The notes under the pieces were generated by a model. It made no database searches. It was not told where the DNA came from and saw nothing but the letters and a program-made list of their open reading frames with translations. The position numbers and the translations under genes were made by a program. Source: Clostridia bacterium (lineage in GTDB: Bacteria; Bacillota; Clostridia; Oscillospirales; CAG-272). Taken from it: DNA of 10,155 bases. This document shows, in pieces, positions 1-9,823 of this stretch (positions are counted from its first letter, which is position 1; every line of letters starts with the position of its first letter). The stretch lies in assembly GCA_017559555.1 (NCBI GenBank), contig JAFYRH010000301.1, positions 1 to 10,155 on the forward strand. Direction: 5' to 3'.

Positions 1-1350
1 GCCTGCTTTTGCTCGGGAGTTTTAGCAGCGGCAAGAGCAGCATTGAATGCTTCGATTTCTGCCAAGAGGGCATCATTGCGAGCATCATTGCGGGAAACGC
101 CTTGTTTCTTTGCCTTTACAATGGTTTGCTTTTGCTTTTCGGTAACTGCTTTCTTTTGCTCGGGGGTCTTTGCAGCAGCGTAAGCAGTATCGAGCTTCTT
201 CATATCGCTCTCGAATTTAGCCTGTTCAGCAGTTTTAGCAACCTTAGTGGATTTGCTTGCTGCAACCTTTTGGGTCATAGCCTGCTTTTCGGCAACGATA
301 ACAGCCTGTTTTTGTTCGGGAGTTTTAGCGGCGGCAAGGGCAGCATTGAATGCAGCGATTTCGGCAGCGGTTGCATCAAGCTTGGAGGAGCTGGAAACAC
401 CTTGCTTCTTTGCCTTGATAATGGTTTGCTTTTGTTGTTCGATAATATTTTGTTGTTCTTCGGGCGTTACAGCGGTGGTCAGGGCAGAGTCAAGAACGTT
501 CATTTCAGCTTCGAATTGATCTTGTTCTCTGGTTCTTGCAATCGATTGCTCGGGTGCGGGACCAACCATAGCTTGCTTTTCGGAACGGATTAGAGCATAT
601 TTTGCCTGAGGAGTCTTAGCTGCATTGTAAGCGGCATTGAAGGTAGCAATTTCGGACTCGATAACATCGGAGCCGACTTTCTTTGCGGCGCGTTGCTTCT
701 TTGCCTTGATAATAACTTGCTTTTCTGCCTCGATGACAGCTTGCTTTTGTTCCTCGGTCTTAGCACTCTTGAGCTCGTTGCCCAAAGCGTTCATTTCGGC
801 CTTGAATTGAGTTTGTTCTTCGGTGAGAACGGGAGCCTGCTTGCTTGCCTTCAGCATAGACTTCTTTTCTGCTTGAATAACAGCGTGCTTTTGCTTAGGC
901 GTTTCAGCTAACGCAAGGGCAGTGTTGAATGCAAGGATTTCGGACTCGATATCCTCGGGGGTAGTAGCCTTTGCCATGCGTTGCTTCTTTGCTTTGATGA
1001 TAGTTTGCTTTTGAACGTCGAGAATTGCCTTCTTTTCGTCCTCAGACTTAGCGGTCTTCAAAGCGGAGTCGAGAGTGTTCATATCCGACTCAAATTGCAT
1101 TTGCTCCTCGGTTTTAACGGTAGCGCGAGCGGGCTCCAGCATAGCTTGCTTTTCTGCTTCGATAACAGCTTGCTTTTCTGCGGGTGTCTTTGCAGCTTGC
1201 ATAGCCGAGTTGAATTCAACGATTTCCGAGTCGGCAACAGCAGGAGCTGTGGAGTAAGCAGCCAGAACTTGCTTTTCAGCTTCAATAATAGCTTGCTTTT
1301 CCGCAGGAGTGCTTGCAGCGAGAAGGGCAGCGTTGAATGCCATGATCTCC
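1..1350 (-). repeat. Tandem A/B coding repeats, superperiod about 285-303 bp
   Basis: Two helical modules alternate within the GerW-like gene. Module A has the core AFNAALAAAKTPEQKQAVI followed by AEKQAM. Module B has the core QFESDMNTLDSAL, then KTPEEKK and TIIKAKKQ. The A core (codons for A-F-N) ends at plus coordinates 1340, 1217, 932, 644, 353 and 50, so steps are 123, 285, 288, 291 and 303 bp. The 123-bp step is an A-A junction lacking B. Four complete B modules lie between the later A modules. Each module looks like a helix, a TPEEK turn and a second helix, which suggests stacked helical hairpins or coiled coil (inference). The array continues past position 1. Confidence 0.93.
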
Positions 1351-2318
1351 GCTTGGATTTGAGCTTCTCTTTCTTCGGGAGTCATAGCGGCAATGCGCTT
1401 GTTCTTCTTACCGCCAACAATGATAGAAGAGGAATCGTATTGAGTGGAAGCATAAGCGGGAGAAGCATCGGCAATCGCTTGTTGTTCAACCGCGATTTGA
1501 GCTTGCTTTTCACCCTCAAGTTGAGCATCGATTTGAGCCTCGGTAAGAGCGGATTGGATATATTGCTTTTCTTCGGGAGTTTGAGCTGCATCCAAAGCCA
1601 TTTGAAGAGCCAAAATATCGGCTTGGATCTTTGCCAATATTGCAGCACTCTTGTCTGCCTTCTTTTGCAGTTTTGCAGCTTCCTTGTCTCTCTTCTTTTG
1701 TTCCTTGAGATCGAGCTTCATTTGCTTGCGACCCATTCTGGATTCAGCAAATGCCTCACCCTCATCCGCATACAGAATTTGTTCGGTTGCGGCAACGGCA
1801 TCATCAGCGAATATAGGAGCGATAGCCGTGGTATCAGTGTCACCTTCGGCAAGGAGTTGCTCTTCGTATTCTTGAGCGATTTCAGGCTGAACGTCGATAT
1901 CGACATCTGCCGAAGATTCTTGGTAACCGTTCATCAACACGTTCTTGATACGGCCGATGATGTCGGGAGAGTTGTAGATAAGGTCTGCAACAACCTCTAC
2001 GGGGGTAAGCTTTTCCGACGTCATGGGGATCATATCCACCTTGCCCTCGGGGGTGATGGTCAAAAAGCCAACGGGAACTACGCTAACACCTGTTCCACCA
2101 ACACCGCCAAAGTTTTTCTTTCCGCTCTCGTCTGCAAGCTTCGAGGGCAGATCCAAACCACCTGTGGCAATACCCATAGAGAGCTTGGAAATCGGAATAA
2201 TCACCAAACCGCTAGAGGTAACGATCTGATTACCAACAATGGTGTCCGCATCAATAACGGTGCGCACTTGTTCCAGCGAATTCCGGATTATTTCCTTGAT
2301 AGAAGATTCGTTTTCCAT
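1..2318 (-). CDS. ytfJ: GerW/YtfJ-family sporulation-type protein with very long C-terminal repeat array (partial, 3' end outside window)
   Basis: The frame is open for 772 codons from ATG 2318 to the left edge, so the C-terminus is missing. Residues 1-130 match the Spore_YtfJ (GerW) family: an N-terminal helix, the strand IVGNQIV, then the Gly-rich block NFGGVGGTGVSVVPVGF (about 69-85) and a final helix ending NVLMN. In Bacillus, GerW is a spore protein needed for germination through SleB; relatives also occur outside spore formers. Bacillus-type GerW is only about 150 residues long. Here an acidic linker (about 131-190) leads to a Lys-rich helix (about 195-225) and then to alternating A and B repeats (about 233-772 and beyond). 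No signal peptide or membrane segment is visible. The SD GAAAGGA lies 9 nt before the ATG. The start overlaps the DUF2953 gene by 31 bp, the same pairing as Bacillus ytfI-ytfJ. The domain call is firm; the role of the repeats is unknown. Confidence 0.88.
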   Translation of the reverse strand, partial: MENESSIKEIIRNSLEQVRTVIDADTIVGNQIVTSSGLVIIPISKLSMGIATGGLDLPSKLADESGKKNFGGVGGTGVSVVPVGFLTITPEGKVDMIPMTSEKLTPVEVVADLIYNSPDIIGRIKNVLMNGYQESSADVDIDVQPEIAQEYEEQLLAEGDTDTTAIAPIFADDAVAATEQILYADEGEAFAESRMGRKQMKLDLKEQKKRDKEAAKLQKKADKSAAILAKIQADILALQMALDAAQTPEEKQYIQSALTEAQIDAQLEGEKQAQIAVEQQAIADASPAYASTQYDSSSIIVGGKKNKRIAAMTPEEREAQIQAEIMAFNAALLAASTPAEKQAIIEAEKQVLAAYSTAPAVADSEIVEFNSAMQAAKTPAEKQAVIEAEKQAMLEPARATVKTEEQMQFESDMNTLDSALKTAKSEDEKKAILDVQKQTIIKAKKQRMAKATTPEDIESEILAFNTALALAETPKQKHAVIQAEKKSMLKASKQAPVLTEEQTQFKAEMNALGNELKSAKTEEQKQAVIEAEKQVIIKAKKQRAAKKVGSDVIESEIATFNAAYNAAKTPQAKYALIRSEKQAMVGPAPEQSIARTREQDQFEAEMNVLDSALTTAVTPEEQQNIIEQQKQTIIKAKKQGVSSSSKLDATAAEIAAFNAALAAAKTPEQKQAVIVAEKQAMTQKVAASKSTKVAKTAEQAKFESDMKKLDTAYAAAKTPEQKKAVTEKQKQTIVKAKKQGVSRNDARNDALLAEIEAFNAALAAAKTPEQKQ
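1503..1622 (-). repeat. Degenerate first A module of the repeat array
   Basis: Residues about 233-272 of the GerW-like protein (DILALQMALDAAQTPEEKQ and following) align by eye with the A module, with LQ where later copies have FN. About 90 residues further on, GGKKNKRIAAMTPEERE resembles the end of a B module plus the junction to the next A. This suggests the array originally began here and its oldest unit has decayed. The alignment is by eye only. Confidence 0.6.
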
Positions 2319-3124
2319 AATGAATGATCCTTTCGTATACGTGTTAATATATTTTTTAAATTAAATCGAGGTTTGTTGCGCTGTTCGCGTTGGCGGAGAG
2401 CCGCTTTGCGATAAGCGATTTTCTTTTCTGCATCATAGGCATCTACCATATCTATAAAGATAACGAGTGCGCGCCAAATTTTTGCAGAGAGGACGATGTC
2501 GACGTCGGCACTGCATTCGGTGGAAACATAATCGGGGGTCACCGAAAGGTTTTTGTCTCGACCTTCGAGAAGTGCGTAGTTGTTTTCGACGTACGTTATA
2601 ATTGTGTGAAGAAGTTGTGTTACAACGCCGTAAAGGATTGCTGTGTGTGCAGCCTCGTCGGCAGAAACGCGAATGTGTAATTTGTTGATTCGAATTCTGA
2701 TTTTGCCGCGTGTTTTGTAATAAAACTTTTTGAGCAACGCCAAAACCATTTCCAAATTTTCTTTGATATTGGGAACAGGGCAATACTTTTGCGGAATGCC
2801 GATTTTTTTCTCGGAACGTTTTGCCGCTTTTCTTGCCGCCCGTTCTTTTTTGCGCTCGGCTTTTGCCTTTGCACGTTCCTGGCGCTTCAATTCCCGTCGC
2901 AGGACTGCTTCGGGATTTCGGCAACGTGCAAGATTTCTCGGTTTCTTGTTCGAAGCAGCTTTTTTATCTGGGTAGATCGTAAAGGAAATACCGCAGATGG
3001 AAGCTATAACGCGTATTTGATCTTTTGTAACAACGCGAATTTTGGCGTTTCCAAAGAAAAAGATCAATACAGCCGAAACAAGAATCGCACCGAGTATAAT
3101 AAATATGGTAATCAATACAGTCAA
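2288..3124 (-). CDS. DUF2953 (YtfI-like) membrane-anchored protein
   Basis: 278 residues. Residues 2-24 form one N-terminal hydrophobic helix ending in FFFGNAKIRV. Next comes a very basic, Ala/Lys/Arg/Glu-rich stretch (about 77-107) that is probably helical. After it lies the likely DUF2953 core (about 120-235), with the strand KIRIRINKLHIRVSAD and the segment DEAAHTAILYGVV, where the family usually has a Gly-rich TGD-type segment. The function of the family is unknown. In Bacillus the homologue ytfI sits directly before ytfJ (gerW), and the same pairing is seen here, so a joint role is plausible. The start is TTG 3124, chosen because GGAGGA lies 6 nt upstream and because TTG shares bases with the scpB stop TGA (TTGA junction, translational coupling). 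The last 31 bp overlap the GerW-like gene. The family call rests on motif and context, not a search. Confidence 0.82.
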   Translation of the reverse strand: MTVLITIFIILGAILVSAVLIFFFGNAKIRVVTKDQIRVIASICGISFTIYPDKKAASNKKPRNLARCRNPEAVLRRELKRQERAKAKAERKKERAARKAAKRSEKKIGIPQKYCPVPNIKENLEMVLALLKKFYYKTRGKIRIRINKLHIRVSADEAAHTAILYGVVTQLLHTIITYVENNYALLEGRDKNLSVTPDYVSTECSADVDIVLSAKIWRALVIFIDMVDAYDAEKKIAYRKAALRQREQRNKPRFNLKNILTRIRKDHSLWKTNLLSRK

Positions 3125-3885
3125 GGCAGCTCCTCCTTGTCATCGGAGTCAGCCGTGGGAGGCGGGGCAGCGGAAAGTGCCTCAATGGCAACGTCTTCCT
3201 CTTCGCCGTCAACCGGTTCGGTGTATTCACTCGGTATTGCCTCGTCATCCACCTCAAACGTCAGTTGTTCTGCCTCTTCGGTCTCTTGTCCTGCCTCCGA
3301 CCCTTCTGCTTGTGCTGCAGCCACACTCAAAGCCTCGGTTTCGGGGAGCTCATCCAGAGCATTGAGCCCGAATACACGTAGGAACTTGTCGGTGGTGACG
3401 TAAAGCATTGGGCGACCGGGGGCGTCAAGACGGCCGGCGGCTTCTATCAAACCCTTGTCGAGAAGTGAATTGACGGCATAGGAGCTATCCACACCGCGCA
3501 CCAAATCGATGTACGATCTTGTTACGGGTTGGTTGTAGGCGACAACCGCAAGCACTTCCATCGAAGATGCCGAGAGGTTTCCGCCACGGCGAATGCCGAG
3601 AGCTTCTCTGATGTAGGGGGCGTAACGCTCCTTTGTAGCAAGCTGACAGGTGGTGGGGTAGAGCAGGAGTTGAATTCCGTGGTGAGTATCCTCAAGGGCG
3701 AAATGATCTGCCATTGAGCGCACCAAGGTTTTTACGTCCTTTGTGCTCAAGCCCAAAAGCTCACCCAGCTTATCGTAACGTATCGGGTAGCCTGCGGCGT
3801 ACAGGATAGCCTCAATGGCTTGCTTCAGATCCTGCTCGCTTGTTAACTGCTCGAGGTACGGAGCGGCTTCTTTCTTTTGTTCCAT
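3121..3885 (-). CDS. scpB: Segregation and condensation protein B (ScpB)
   Basis: 254 residues. ScpB binds as a dimer to the kleisin ScpA and, with SMC, forms the bacterial condensin that compacts and helps separate the chromosome. Two winged-helix domains are visible. The first is about 18-82 (QAIEAILYAAGYPI, then LGELLGL). The second is about 104-175, with the family signature LEVLAVVAYNQP-type segment at about 109-120, VTRSYIDLVRGVDS at 121-134, and GRPMLYVTTDKFLRVFGL at 157-174. After residue 176 comes an acidic, Pro/Ala/Glu-rich tail of about 75 residues that looks disordered; it accounts for most of the excess over the usual length of about 180-200. The gene starts 43 bp after scpA. Its GAAAGGA is about 15 nt from the ATG, rather far. 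It ends in TGA overlapping the next start. Confidence 0.96.
   Translation of the reverse strand: MEQKKEAAPYLEQLTSEQDLKQAIEAILYAAGYPIRYDKLGELLGLSTKDVKTLVRSMADHFALEDTHHGIQLLLYPTTCQLATKERYAPYIREALGIRRGGNLSASSMEVLAVVAYNQPVTRSYIDLVRGVDSSYAVNSLLDKGLIEAAGRLDAPGRPMLYVTTDKFLRVFGLNALDELPETEALSVAAAQAEGSEAGQETEEAEQLTFEVDDEAIPSEYTEPVDGEEEDVAIEALSAAPPPTADSDDKEELP
3131..3136 (-). promoter_or_regulatory. Strong Shine-Dalgarno for the TTG-started DUF2953 gene
   Basis: On the minus strand GGAGGA lies 6 nt before TTG 3124 and inside the last codons of scpB. It decides the unusual TTG start and differs from the GAAAGGA type used by most genes of the operon. Confidence 0.75.
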
Positions 3886-3928
3886 AATATCTGCGCTAAA
3901 TCCTTTCGGGGAATTTTATCGTCAATCT

Positions 3929-5065
3929 TTATTGAGTGTCATCGGGGAGATTTTTTGCTTGTTCTGCCATCGACTTGATGATGTCGTTGATATCCAAACC
4001 CATATCGTCCATGATATCCTCATCATCTTCGGAGAGTTGATCGTCAAGCATTTGTGCAATTTTTGCTTCGGCTTCAAGATCGCTATCGTCCTCGGGAATG
4101 ATGTCGGCTTCAATAAGCGACTCCGCGAGAGCGGCTTCCTTGGCACGGAGGCGTTCCTCTGCGCGGCGCGCACGCTCTTCGGCGCGCACGCGCTTCTTTT
4201 CGGCAAGCTTTGCTTCACGAATGATGCGTCGTTGCTCGCGATGCATTTCTGCCTTGGAGGAAAGCGGAATCGGCTCGTCTCCGTGAACGGCAGGATTGTA
4301 TTCTTTTTGTTCCTCACCCTCGGCAGGAGGCGCATCGTTGATAACGAAGCGCGTGTCAACGCCGTGAATAACGGTGTAGGAATCGGGATCTTCATCGATT
4401 AAAATTTTGCGAACCTTAACAAGCTCCAAAATACCCAAGAAGATGGCGATCATATCGTTGAGTGATACGGCATCGTGAAGAATTTCCTGCAAGGAAGTTT
4501 CTCTCTTGCGAGACATTCTGTGAAGAATGCCCACGATCTTGACGTCAACGGGAATGATGGGCTTGGCAACCAGAGGTGCAAAGGTTTGTCTTTCCGCGCG
4601 CGGGCGCGATTCGTTTGCCGCAATGATGCGACGGACAGCAGCACAAAGTTGGGTAACTTCTTGGTCGCTTACGTAAGAGGTGTCGATCGAAATTTCGTCG
4701 GTATCTTTCACCATACGACCGCTGTAGGTTTGGTAAAGGGGAATCATTTTTGCCACAGCTTGCTTTGCTTGTTGATAACGCAAAAGGGCTTCGGCAAGGT
4801 CGGCACGGGGATCCTTTTCGTCTTCTTCAACTCTGGGGAGGAGCAGGCGGCTCTTGATGAGCATCAGTTCGCTCGCCATAACGATGAATTCACCCGCGAT
4901 CTCCATATCCATATCCTGCGCCGCCTTGAGGTATTCAAGGTATTGGTCGCAGATGAGCGCGATGGGAATATCGATAATATTCACTTTGTTCTTTTGAATC
5001 AGCATCAAAAGCAGGTCAAGGGGACCTTCGAACTGATCCAATCGGTAAGTGATTGTGGCTTCCAT
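3929..5065 (-). CDS. scpA: Segregation and condensation protein A (ScpA), C-terminally extended
   Basis: 378 residues, against about 240-260 for a typical ScpA. It is the kleisin bridging the SMC heads and binding ScpB. The N-terminal helical domain carries the hallmark FEGPLDLLLMLI (12-23) and the ELMLIKSRLLLP segment (66-77). The C-terminal winged helix that contacts the SMC head is about 170-235 (VGILHRMSRKRETSLQEIL, FLGILELVKVRKI). Beyond about 245 there are some 135 extra residues: a linker, a highly charged Arg/Glu/Ala helix (about 272-318) likely to be coiled coil, and an acidic tail (323-357) ending in a short helix. The start ATG 5065 has GAAAGGA about 14 nt upstream. The gene follows the M50 protease gene by 30 bp and precedes scpB by 43 bp, so the three are very likely co-transcribed. 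Confidence 0.96.
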   Translation of the reverse strand: MEATITYRLDQFEGPLDLLLMLIQKNKVNIIDIPIALICDQYLEYLKAAQDMDMEIAGEFIVMASELMLIKSRLLLPRVEEDEKDPRADLAEALLRYQQAKQAVAKMIPLYQTYSGRMVKDTDEISIDTSYVSDQEVTQLCAAVRRIIAANESRPRAERQTFAPLVAKPIIPVDVKIVGILHRMSRKRETSLQEILHDAVSLNDMIAIFLGILELVKVRKILIDEDPDSYTVIHGVDTRFVINDAPPAEGEEQKEYNPAVHGDEPIPLSSKAEMHREQRRIIREAKLAEKKRVRAEERARRAEERLRAKEAALAESLIEADIIPEDDSDLEAEAKIAQMLDDQLSEDDEDIMDDMGLDINDIIKSMAEQAKNLPDDTQ

Positions 5066-9424: not shown

Positions 9425-9532
9425 TTCGATTACAAGACCAATGCCGATTCCATTGAGGTTTCTTGTTACGCGGATGGCATTTCTCAAACCGATGGGAGCG
9501 ATTTGGATGCGCTTTGCGAGAGGTTTGAGAAG

Positions 9533-9823
9533 ATGCGTTGGTGGCAGAGGTTGTTTGGAATTTTTAACAGCGAAGACCGCAAATATCATCTGCGCGGAGC
9601 GTGGATTTGCCTTGTTGCTTTTCTCGCATCGGGAATAGTATCATTCTTTCTCAAATTGTGGAAAGGGATAGCCCCATGGGAAGCCTTAAGCGATACATTT
9701 ATCAACTTGTTGATTTATTCTGTCGCAATTTGTATCGGTTGGTCTATCGTGCACAGTAAATGCGGACAGAGGCGAAAATTGATACAGCAATTGAAAGAAC
9801 AGTCAAAAATCTCCAAAAGGTGA
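9533..9823 (+). CDS. Small two-helix membrane protein, C-terminal part of an interrupted frame
   Basis: 96 residues if started at ATG 9533, which has GAGAGG 9 nt upstream; TTG 9503 in the same frame is an alternative with a poorer SD. It begins MRWWQRLFGIF and has two hydrophobic helices, AWICLVAFLASGIVSFFLKL and FINLLIYSVAICIGWSIV, then a basic tail ending in KISKR, so both ends would be predicted on the cytoplasmic side. The family is not recognised. It ends 27 bp before uvrB and is probably on the same transcript. It shares its frame with the 9203 fragment. It could be a reinitiated separate protein or simply the back half of a broken gene. Confidence 0.5.
   Translation: MRWWQRLFGIFNSEDRKYHLRGAWICLVAFLASGIVSFFLKLWKGIAPWEALSDTFINLLIYSVAICIGWSIVHSKCGQRRKLIQQLKEQSKISKR

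Follow-up and report, generated by a model that had tools for sequence, protein, structure and literature searches.

A GerW-family protein carrying a long, predicted helical repeat array in two related uncultured gut bacteria

GerW (YtfJ) of Bacillus is a short single-domain protein of about 150 amino acids. In Bacillus, transcription of gerW takes place in the forespore and is ascribed to sigma F, with the protein found in the soluble spore fraction of B. subtilis (PMC4366231). The same source places GerW homologues in spore-forming Bacillales and Clostridiales, finds no germination phenotype following loss of gerW in two Bacillus species and leaves the role of GerW undetermined (PMC4366231). 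For Moorella thermoacetica, a second source includes a GerW/YtfJ orthologue in its list of spore protein orthologues (PMC8745062). No title on GerW with repeats was found among the titles listed from the open-licence PMC literature.

The DNA analysed here, referred to as the window, is the entire contig C383 (10,155 bases) of a genome (G000) of 1.66 Mb in 384 contigs and 69% complete. On its minus strand a gerW frame runs from an ATG at 2318 to position 3, comprising 772 codons with no stop and remaining open at the contig end, with the following features of the gene and of the genes upstream:

3 to 2318, minus strand: gerW-array gene, N-terminal 772 amino acids (open reading frame list and orthologue in a second species, G003)
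2326 to 2333, minus strand: probable ribosome-binding site AAAGGATC ahead of the ATG at 2318 (sequence reading)
1929 to 2318, minus strand: GerW/YtfJ domain, residues 1-130, with the Pfam match at residues 33-114 (1977 to 2222) (Pfam)
1737 to 1928, minus strand: acidic linker, residues 131-194, pLDDT mostly low (charge of residues 131-222 and AlphaFold2)
1467 to 1736, minus strand: predicted long charged helical hairpin, residues 195-284 (helices 195-244 and 248-284), holding module 1 (turns and AlphaFold2)
1380 to 1466, minus strand: linker, residues 285-313, largely low-confidence (AlphaFold2)
1137 to 1379, minus strand: bead 1, residues 314-394 (modules 2 and 3), four predicted helices (turns and AlphaFold2)
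846 to 1109, minus strand: predicted bead 2, residues 404-491 (modules 4 and 5, types B and A) (turns and AlphaFold2)
564 to 821, minus strand: predicted bead 3, residues 500-585 (modules 6 and 7, types B and A) (turns and AlphaFold2)
252 to 530, minus strand: predicted bead 4, residues 597-689 (modules 8 and 9, types B and A) (turns and AlphaFold2)
3 to 230, minus strand: predicted bead 5, residues 697-772 (module 10 and part of module 11), cut by the contig end (turns and AlphaFold2)
2288 to 3124, minus strand: DUF2953 gene (PF11167), upstream of gerW and overlapping the gerW start by 31 nt (Pfam)
3121 to 3885, minus strand: scpB, upstream in the same gene run (Pfam)
3929 to 5065, minus strand: scpA, upstream in the same gene run (Pfam)

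The gerW-array gene, overlapping DUF2953 at its start, may be transcribed from upstream. A scan of the window with a sigma-F consensus, allowing up to two mismatches, returned nine matches where chance predicts 6.95 (nine or more in 51 of 200 shuffles), those on the gerW strand including one inside the gene and none directly before it. ScpA (378 amino acids) and ScpB (254 amino acids; 3121 to 5065 together, minus strand) have long charged or acidic C-terminal tails past their Pfam matches (residues 22-224 and 23-182, respectively), such that charged extensions at the locus are not confined to GerW. Elsewhere in the window lie genes that we take, by eye, to be lon, engB and, truncated at the contig end, a uvrB-like gene, with a small open reading frame of 106 amino acids with hydrophobic stretches between lon and the uvrB-like gene (9503 to 9823, plus strand). 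Two open frames opposite the array on the plus strand (3 to 593, 196 amino acids; 981 to 2327, 448 amino acids) were rejected as genes, probably being shadows of Glu, Lys, Gln and Ala codons, since variation is greatest at the third codon positions of the minus-strand frame.

The N-terminal domain matches Pfam PF09579 (Spore_YtfJ) at residues 33-114 with E 1.7e-14 and 54.2 bits against a cut-off of 25 (58.6 bits in the genome search). Against the NCBIfam equivalog TIGR02874 the protein scored 81.8 bits, below the cut-off of 116.3; this cut-off was missed by all 13 proteins of the genus tested (the window protein, those of G003 and G032 and ten others) while nearly the whole model was covered, so that the shortfall is not due to the array, and the threshold may be overly stringent for proteins of this lineage. 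The preliminary description had called for a check of sporulation genes. Matches above cut-off to spo0A, spoIVA and a SleB-family gene (Hydrolase_2) were found in both the window genome and G003. For spoIIE, G003 and G032 each gave candidates scoring under the curated cut-off, and the incomplete window genome gave short weak matches only. By analogy with the Bacillus protein, the window protein is probably a sporulation protein, located presumably in the forespore.

The repeats begin near residue 225, past an acidic linker of about 65 residues and the beginning of a long charged helix. The array within the window comprises eleven modules of about 48 residues, the final one cut by the contig end, with hairpin turns of the A-x-T-P-E-x-K type at residues 247, 337, 378, 425, 473, 521, 569, 618, 666, 718 and 767, the first gap being 90 residues and the later gaps 41-52. 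Mean pairwise identity among the ten complete modules was 16.2 of 44 residues compared with 4.2 in shuffled sequence (sd 1.95, maximum 12). The consensus of type A is I.SEI.AFNAAL.AAKTP..KQAVI.AEKQAM and that of type B is TEEQ.QFESDMN.LDSALKTAKTEEEKKAIIE.QKQTIIKAKKQ. The domain and a long array of two alternating modules had been described as lying in one uninterrupted frame. The single frame is borne out by the stop-free 772 codons, the PF09579 match and the orthologue in G003, and the alternation, with a larger unit of about 97 residues, holds from module 3 onwards, the two types separating in a tree of the modules built on 44 columns only (91/91). It does not extend to the start of the array, where a divergent module 1 is followed by two type A modules in succession (2 and 3). 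At the DNA level Tandem Repeats Finder detected three short arrays only, and the longest exact repeat within the window array is 21 nt, indicating that the array copies are not recent.

AlphaFold2 predicted helical hairpins across the array, as had been proposed from the sequence, with pTM 0.35 for the 772-residue model and 0.50 for a model of two superunits. The grouping of the hairpins in these models suggests four-helix beads on a string with poorly defined junctions over a single rigid rod. Segments below pLDDT 50 occur at all four between-bead junctions (residues 397-400, 493-496, 587-595 and 688-694), which together with the pTM of the full model speaks against the long rod of the preliminary description, this being weak evidence since two of the five within-bead junctions drop likewise (356-358 and 642-644); the string is at any rate not evidently stiff. 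Structure comparison with the two-superunit model found no clear relative, the fold matches being no better than common helical arrangements. Among PDB sequences, phmmer with the array (E up to 1) and a search with the GerW domain each gave no match, and an array profile gave two weak matches, both to designed proteins (E 0.21 and 0.22). Pfam on the 772 residues (E up to 1) returned Spore_YtfJ alone, with no repeat model above cut-off in the array, and scans of ten array segments gave, for the 25 of 28 families listed, weak and scattered matches (best E 0.0017) to at most two segments each.

A complete orthologue of 1,248 amino acids, with 19 modules and a clear stop, is encoded in G003, a second species of the genus, and is 61% identical to the window protein over query residues 1-767. 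The G003 genes upstream of gerW, lon through DUF2953, show collinearity with those of the window. Contig C12 of the window genome opens with a frame of 151 amino acids. Aligned over 156 columns, this frame shares 63% identity with the end of the G003 protein. Next on C12 come a D-Ala-D-Ala carboxypeptidase-like gene (all its NCBIfam matches below cut-off), a presumed pseudouridine-synthase-like gene assigned by eye, a small open reading frame and Spo0A (above cut-off), which is the gene order after gerW in G003. Because of this identity and gene order the C12 frame is probably the C-terminal end of the window gene, bringing the window protein to at least 923 residues. Extension to a full reading frame, as had been suggested, thus recovered a probable last 151 residues but left the middle of the array missing.

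The same combination of GerW domain and repeats is confined to these two related uncultured gut bacteria among the genomes searched in the genus, family, order and class, which answers the earlier suggestion of listing the lineages that share it. A GerW match was obtained in 32 of 35 genomes of the genus, extending past query residue 251 in G000 and G003 only. Beyond the genus, draws of genomes were searched as overlapping samples, those of the order and class evidently not including G003. In the order draw (394 genomes, single-sequence search, E up to 1e-6) only the window genome was found, up to three first-look candidates per genome being scored among the matches listed, and in the class draw (391 genomes, profile search, E up to 1e-5) only G000. 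The family draw (395 genomes, profile search, E up to 1e-3) gave G000, G003 and one weak match (E 7e-4), rejected as an array in that it falls in the C-terminal helical part of what we take, by eye, to be a valyl-tRNA synthetase. No array match was detected in phages by tblastn (E up to 0.01), and of 237 pattern hits in viral contigs none was confirmed. With the array present in 2 of 35 genomes of the genus, GerW generally has no need of it.

For a closer comparison 30 of 33 GerW genes were examined (29 relatives and the window, leaving out one G025 gene, the second of its two, and those of G007 and G029). The 28 proteins other than the array carriers are 136-265 amino acids long. A tree built on residues 1-132 places the window and G003 proteins as sisters (100/98) inside a foursome with G032 and G026 (96/93). 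A C-terminal tail of the KGKISEKTL type is present in six of the 30 genes, at any linker length (G003, G032, G023, G026, G011 and, via C12, G000), so the array can be read as extending a pre-existing link between the GerW domain and the tail. The array sits between domain and tail, complete in G003, within a linker that is variable across the genus. A module ancestor was sought in the short genes: of the 28, 17 with an extension of at least 40 residues were tested and none held a single-copy module above chance, the best being G011 (matched by 21 of 200 shuffles), and a look-alike in G032, ALKDAQTEEELAEAI, was rejected at -2.4 bits with the module HMM, 69 of 200 shuffles scoring equal or better. 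Another common C-terminal tail, of the ASFDYADED type, occurs in a different GerW subclade of the genus (L008, L011 and L013). Two gerW genes were seen in the G025 genome (contigs C87 and C89), each contig with a spo0A match, reflecting either real duplication or a mixed assembly.

The module tree pairs window and G003 modules one to one for module 1 (100/99), 2 (96/91), 3 (93/92), 7 (88/85) and the last (97/76), with modules 4, 5 and 6 lacking a resolved placement, and groups G003 modules 8/10/12 (98/97) and 9/11/13 (100/99) in clusters of their own. The cross-species pairs and the G003-only clusters imply that an array was present in the common ancestor and that at least the G003 lineage kept duplicating the two-hairpin unit. 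As such the array clearly exemplifies the emergence of repeats within one genus, with early modules shared and later ones species-specific. At the protein level the GerW domain is 92% identical between the two species, compared with about 51-53% in the array. Among the neighbouring genes, identity runs from 68% (DUF2953) and 77% (the M50 peptidase, identified by Pfam) through 89% (lon) to 91-92% (scpA and scpB) and 95% (engB). The dN/dS estimate is 0.12 in the GerW domain; in the array it is 0.27 (0.32, 0.20 and 0.26 by thirds). These values are rough, since dS approaches saturation, with no defined value in the linker. Third codon positions differ most and second positions least between the two species, which suggests selection on the array protein, and in comparisons within the array second positions differ least in 15 of 18, with one tie and two opposite.

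The reading given somewhat better than even chances is that of a GerW-family sporulation protein whose linker has lengthened into a string of helical beads, serving as a length-variable tether or scaffold. Repeated duplication of the two-hairpin unit of about 97 residues would have lengthened the linker between the GerW domain and the C-terminal tail, with the hairpins pairing into four-helix bundles. Presumably made in the forespore like Bacillus GerW, the protein may then hold the GerW domain away from the binding target of the tail or gather several partners.

The main rival to a tether or scaffold, although rather unlikely, is that a charged helical linker grew in one lineage through slippage and unequal recombination, under selection only for solubility and frame, giving a string without a specific task. 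Such near-neutral growth would account for an array found in two sister species only, for the unequal expansion seen in the G003-only clusters, for a linker already variable in length among the 28 other proteins of the genus and for the fast divergence of the array compared with the GerW domain, this last point being qualified by the variability of DUF2953 and the M50 peptidase. It fits less well with alternation and turn residues that repeat across 19 modules in G003, with five module pairs retained one to one between species and with second codon positions that are least different both between the species and in most comparisons within the array. That gerW was joined to an unrelated repeat gene during assembly is highly improbable. 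The contig does stop inside the array and the assembly is incomplete and fragmented, but the same fusion, uninterrupted to its stop and with collinear neighbour genes, is found in the separate assembly of G003. Because the architecture is the same there, the fusion is judged genuine, and the misassembly or frameshift that the preliminary description had named as grounds for its refutation finds no support.

A further proposal, quite improbable, is that the array is a multivalent binder in which the Lys-rich helix ends of the type B modules contact DNA, teichoic acid or another polyanion, decorating spore chromatin or an envelope layer. IIKAKKQ-type ends are indeed seen repeatedly among the window's type B modules, and a forespore location is probable, the B. 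subtilis protein being placed in the soluble spore fraction (PMC4366231). Against this, the net charge of the array is about 0 in the window (residues 223-772) and +6.4 over the 1,026 residues of G003 (223-1248), and G003 modules 8, 10 and 12 have VVDAKK, VVDAKN and VVDAKN in place of the IIKAKKQ-type end. The binding of a polyanion through Lys clusters, raised when the repeats were first described, is accordingly weakened.

To return to the tether or scaffold, the enlargement of about fivefold over the nearest relatives, with domain and tail both kept, suggests that domain and tail each act in a different place. A more specific form of this reading, offered tentatively and considered unlikely, is that one spore structure is bound by the GerW domain and another by the tail, with the number of beads (at least five in the window protein and about nine in G003) setting the distance or the number of partners, such that the array would be an evolving molecular ruler or scaffold. 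If so, the two-ended linker would offer a handle on what GerW actually touches.

Compared with known systems, the array is best read as a lineage-specific addition on an otherwise ordinary sporulation protein. With the GerW/YtfJ family (PF09579; TIGR02874) the window protein shares the N-terminal domain over nearly the whole model and a spo0A-bearing genome, and in G003 gerW likewise lies near a D-Ala-D-Ala carboxypeptidase-like gene and spo0A; it differs in its predicted helical array and its size, at least 772 amino acids and 1,248 in G003. The extended GerW proteins of the genus (G032, G023, G026 and G011) resemble the array protein in their tail type and in a linker that is first acidic and then rich in Lys and Glu, but at 229-265 amino acids they hold no module distinguishable from chance. 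Tandem helical-bundle strings, such as designed helical repeats and alpha-catenin-like four-helix bundles, are resembled by the array in its predicted helix-turn-helix units, and one array superunit aligns to four-helix bundles, at a level no better than common helical arrangements.
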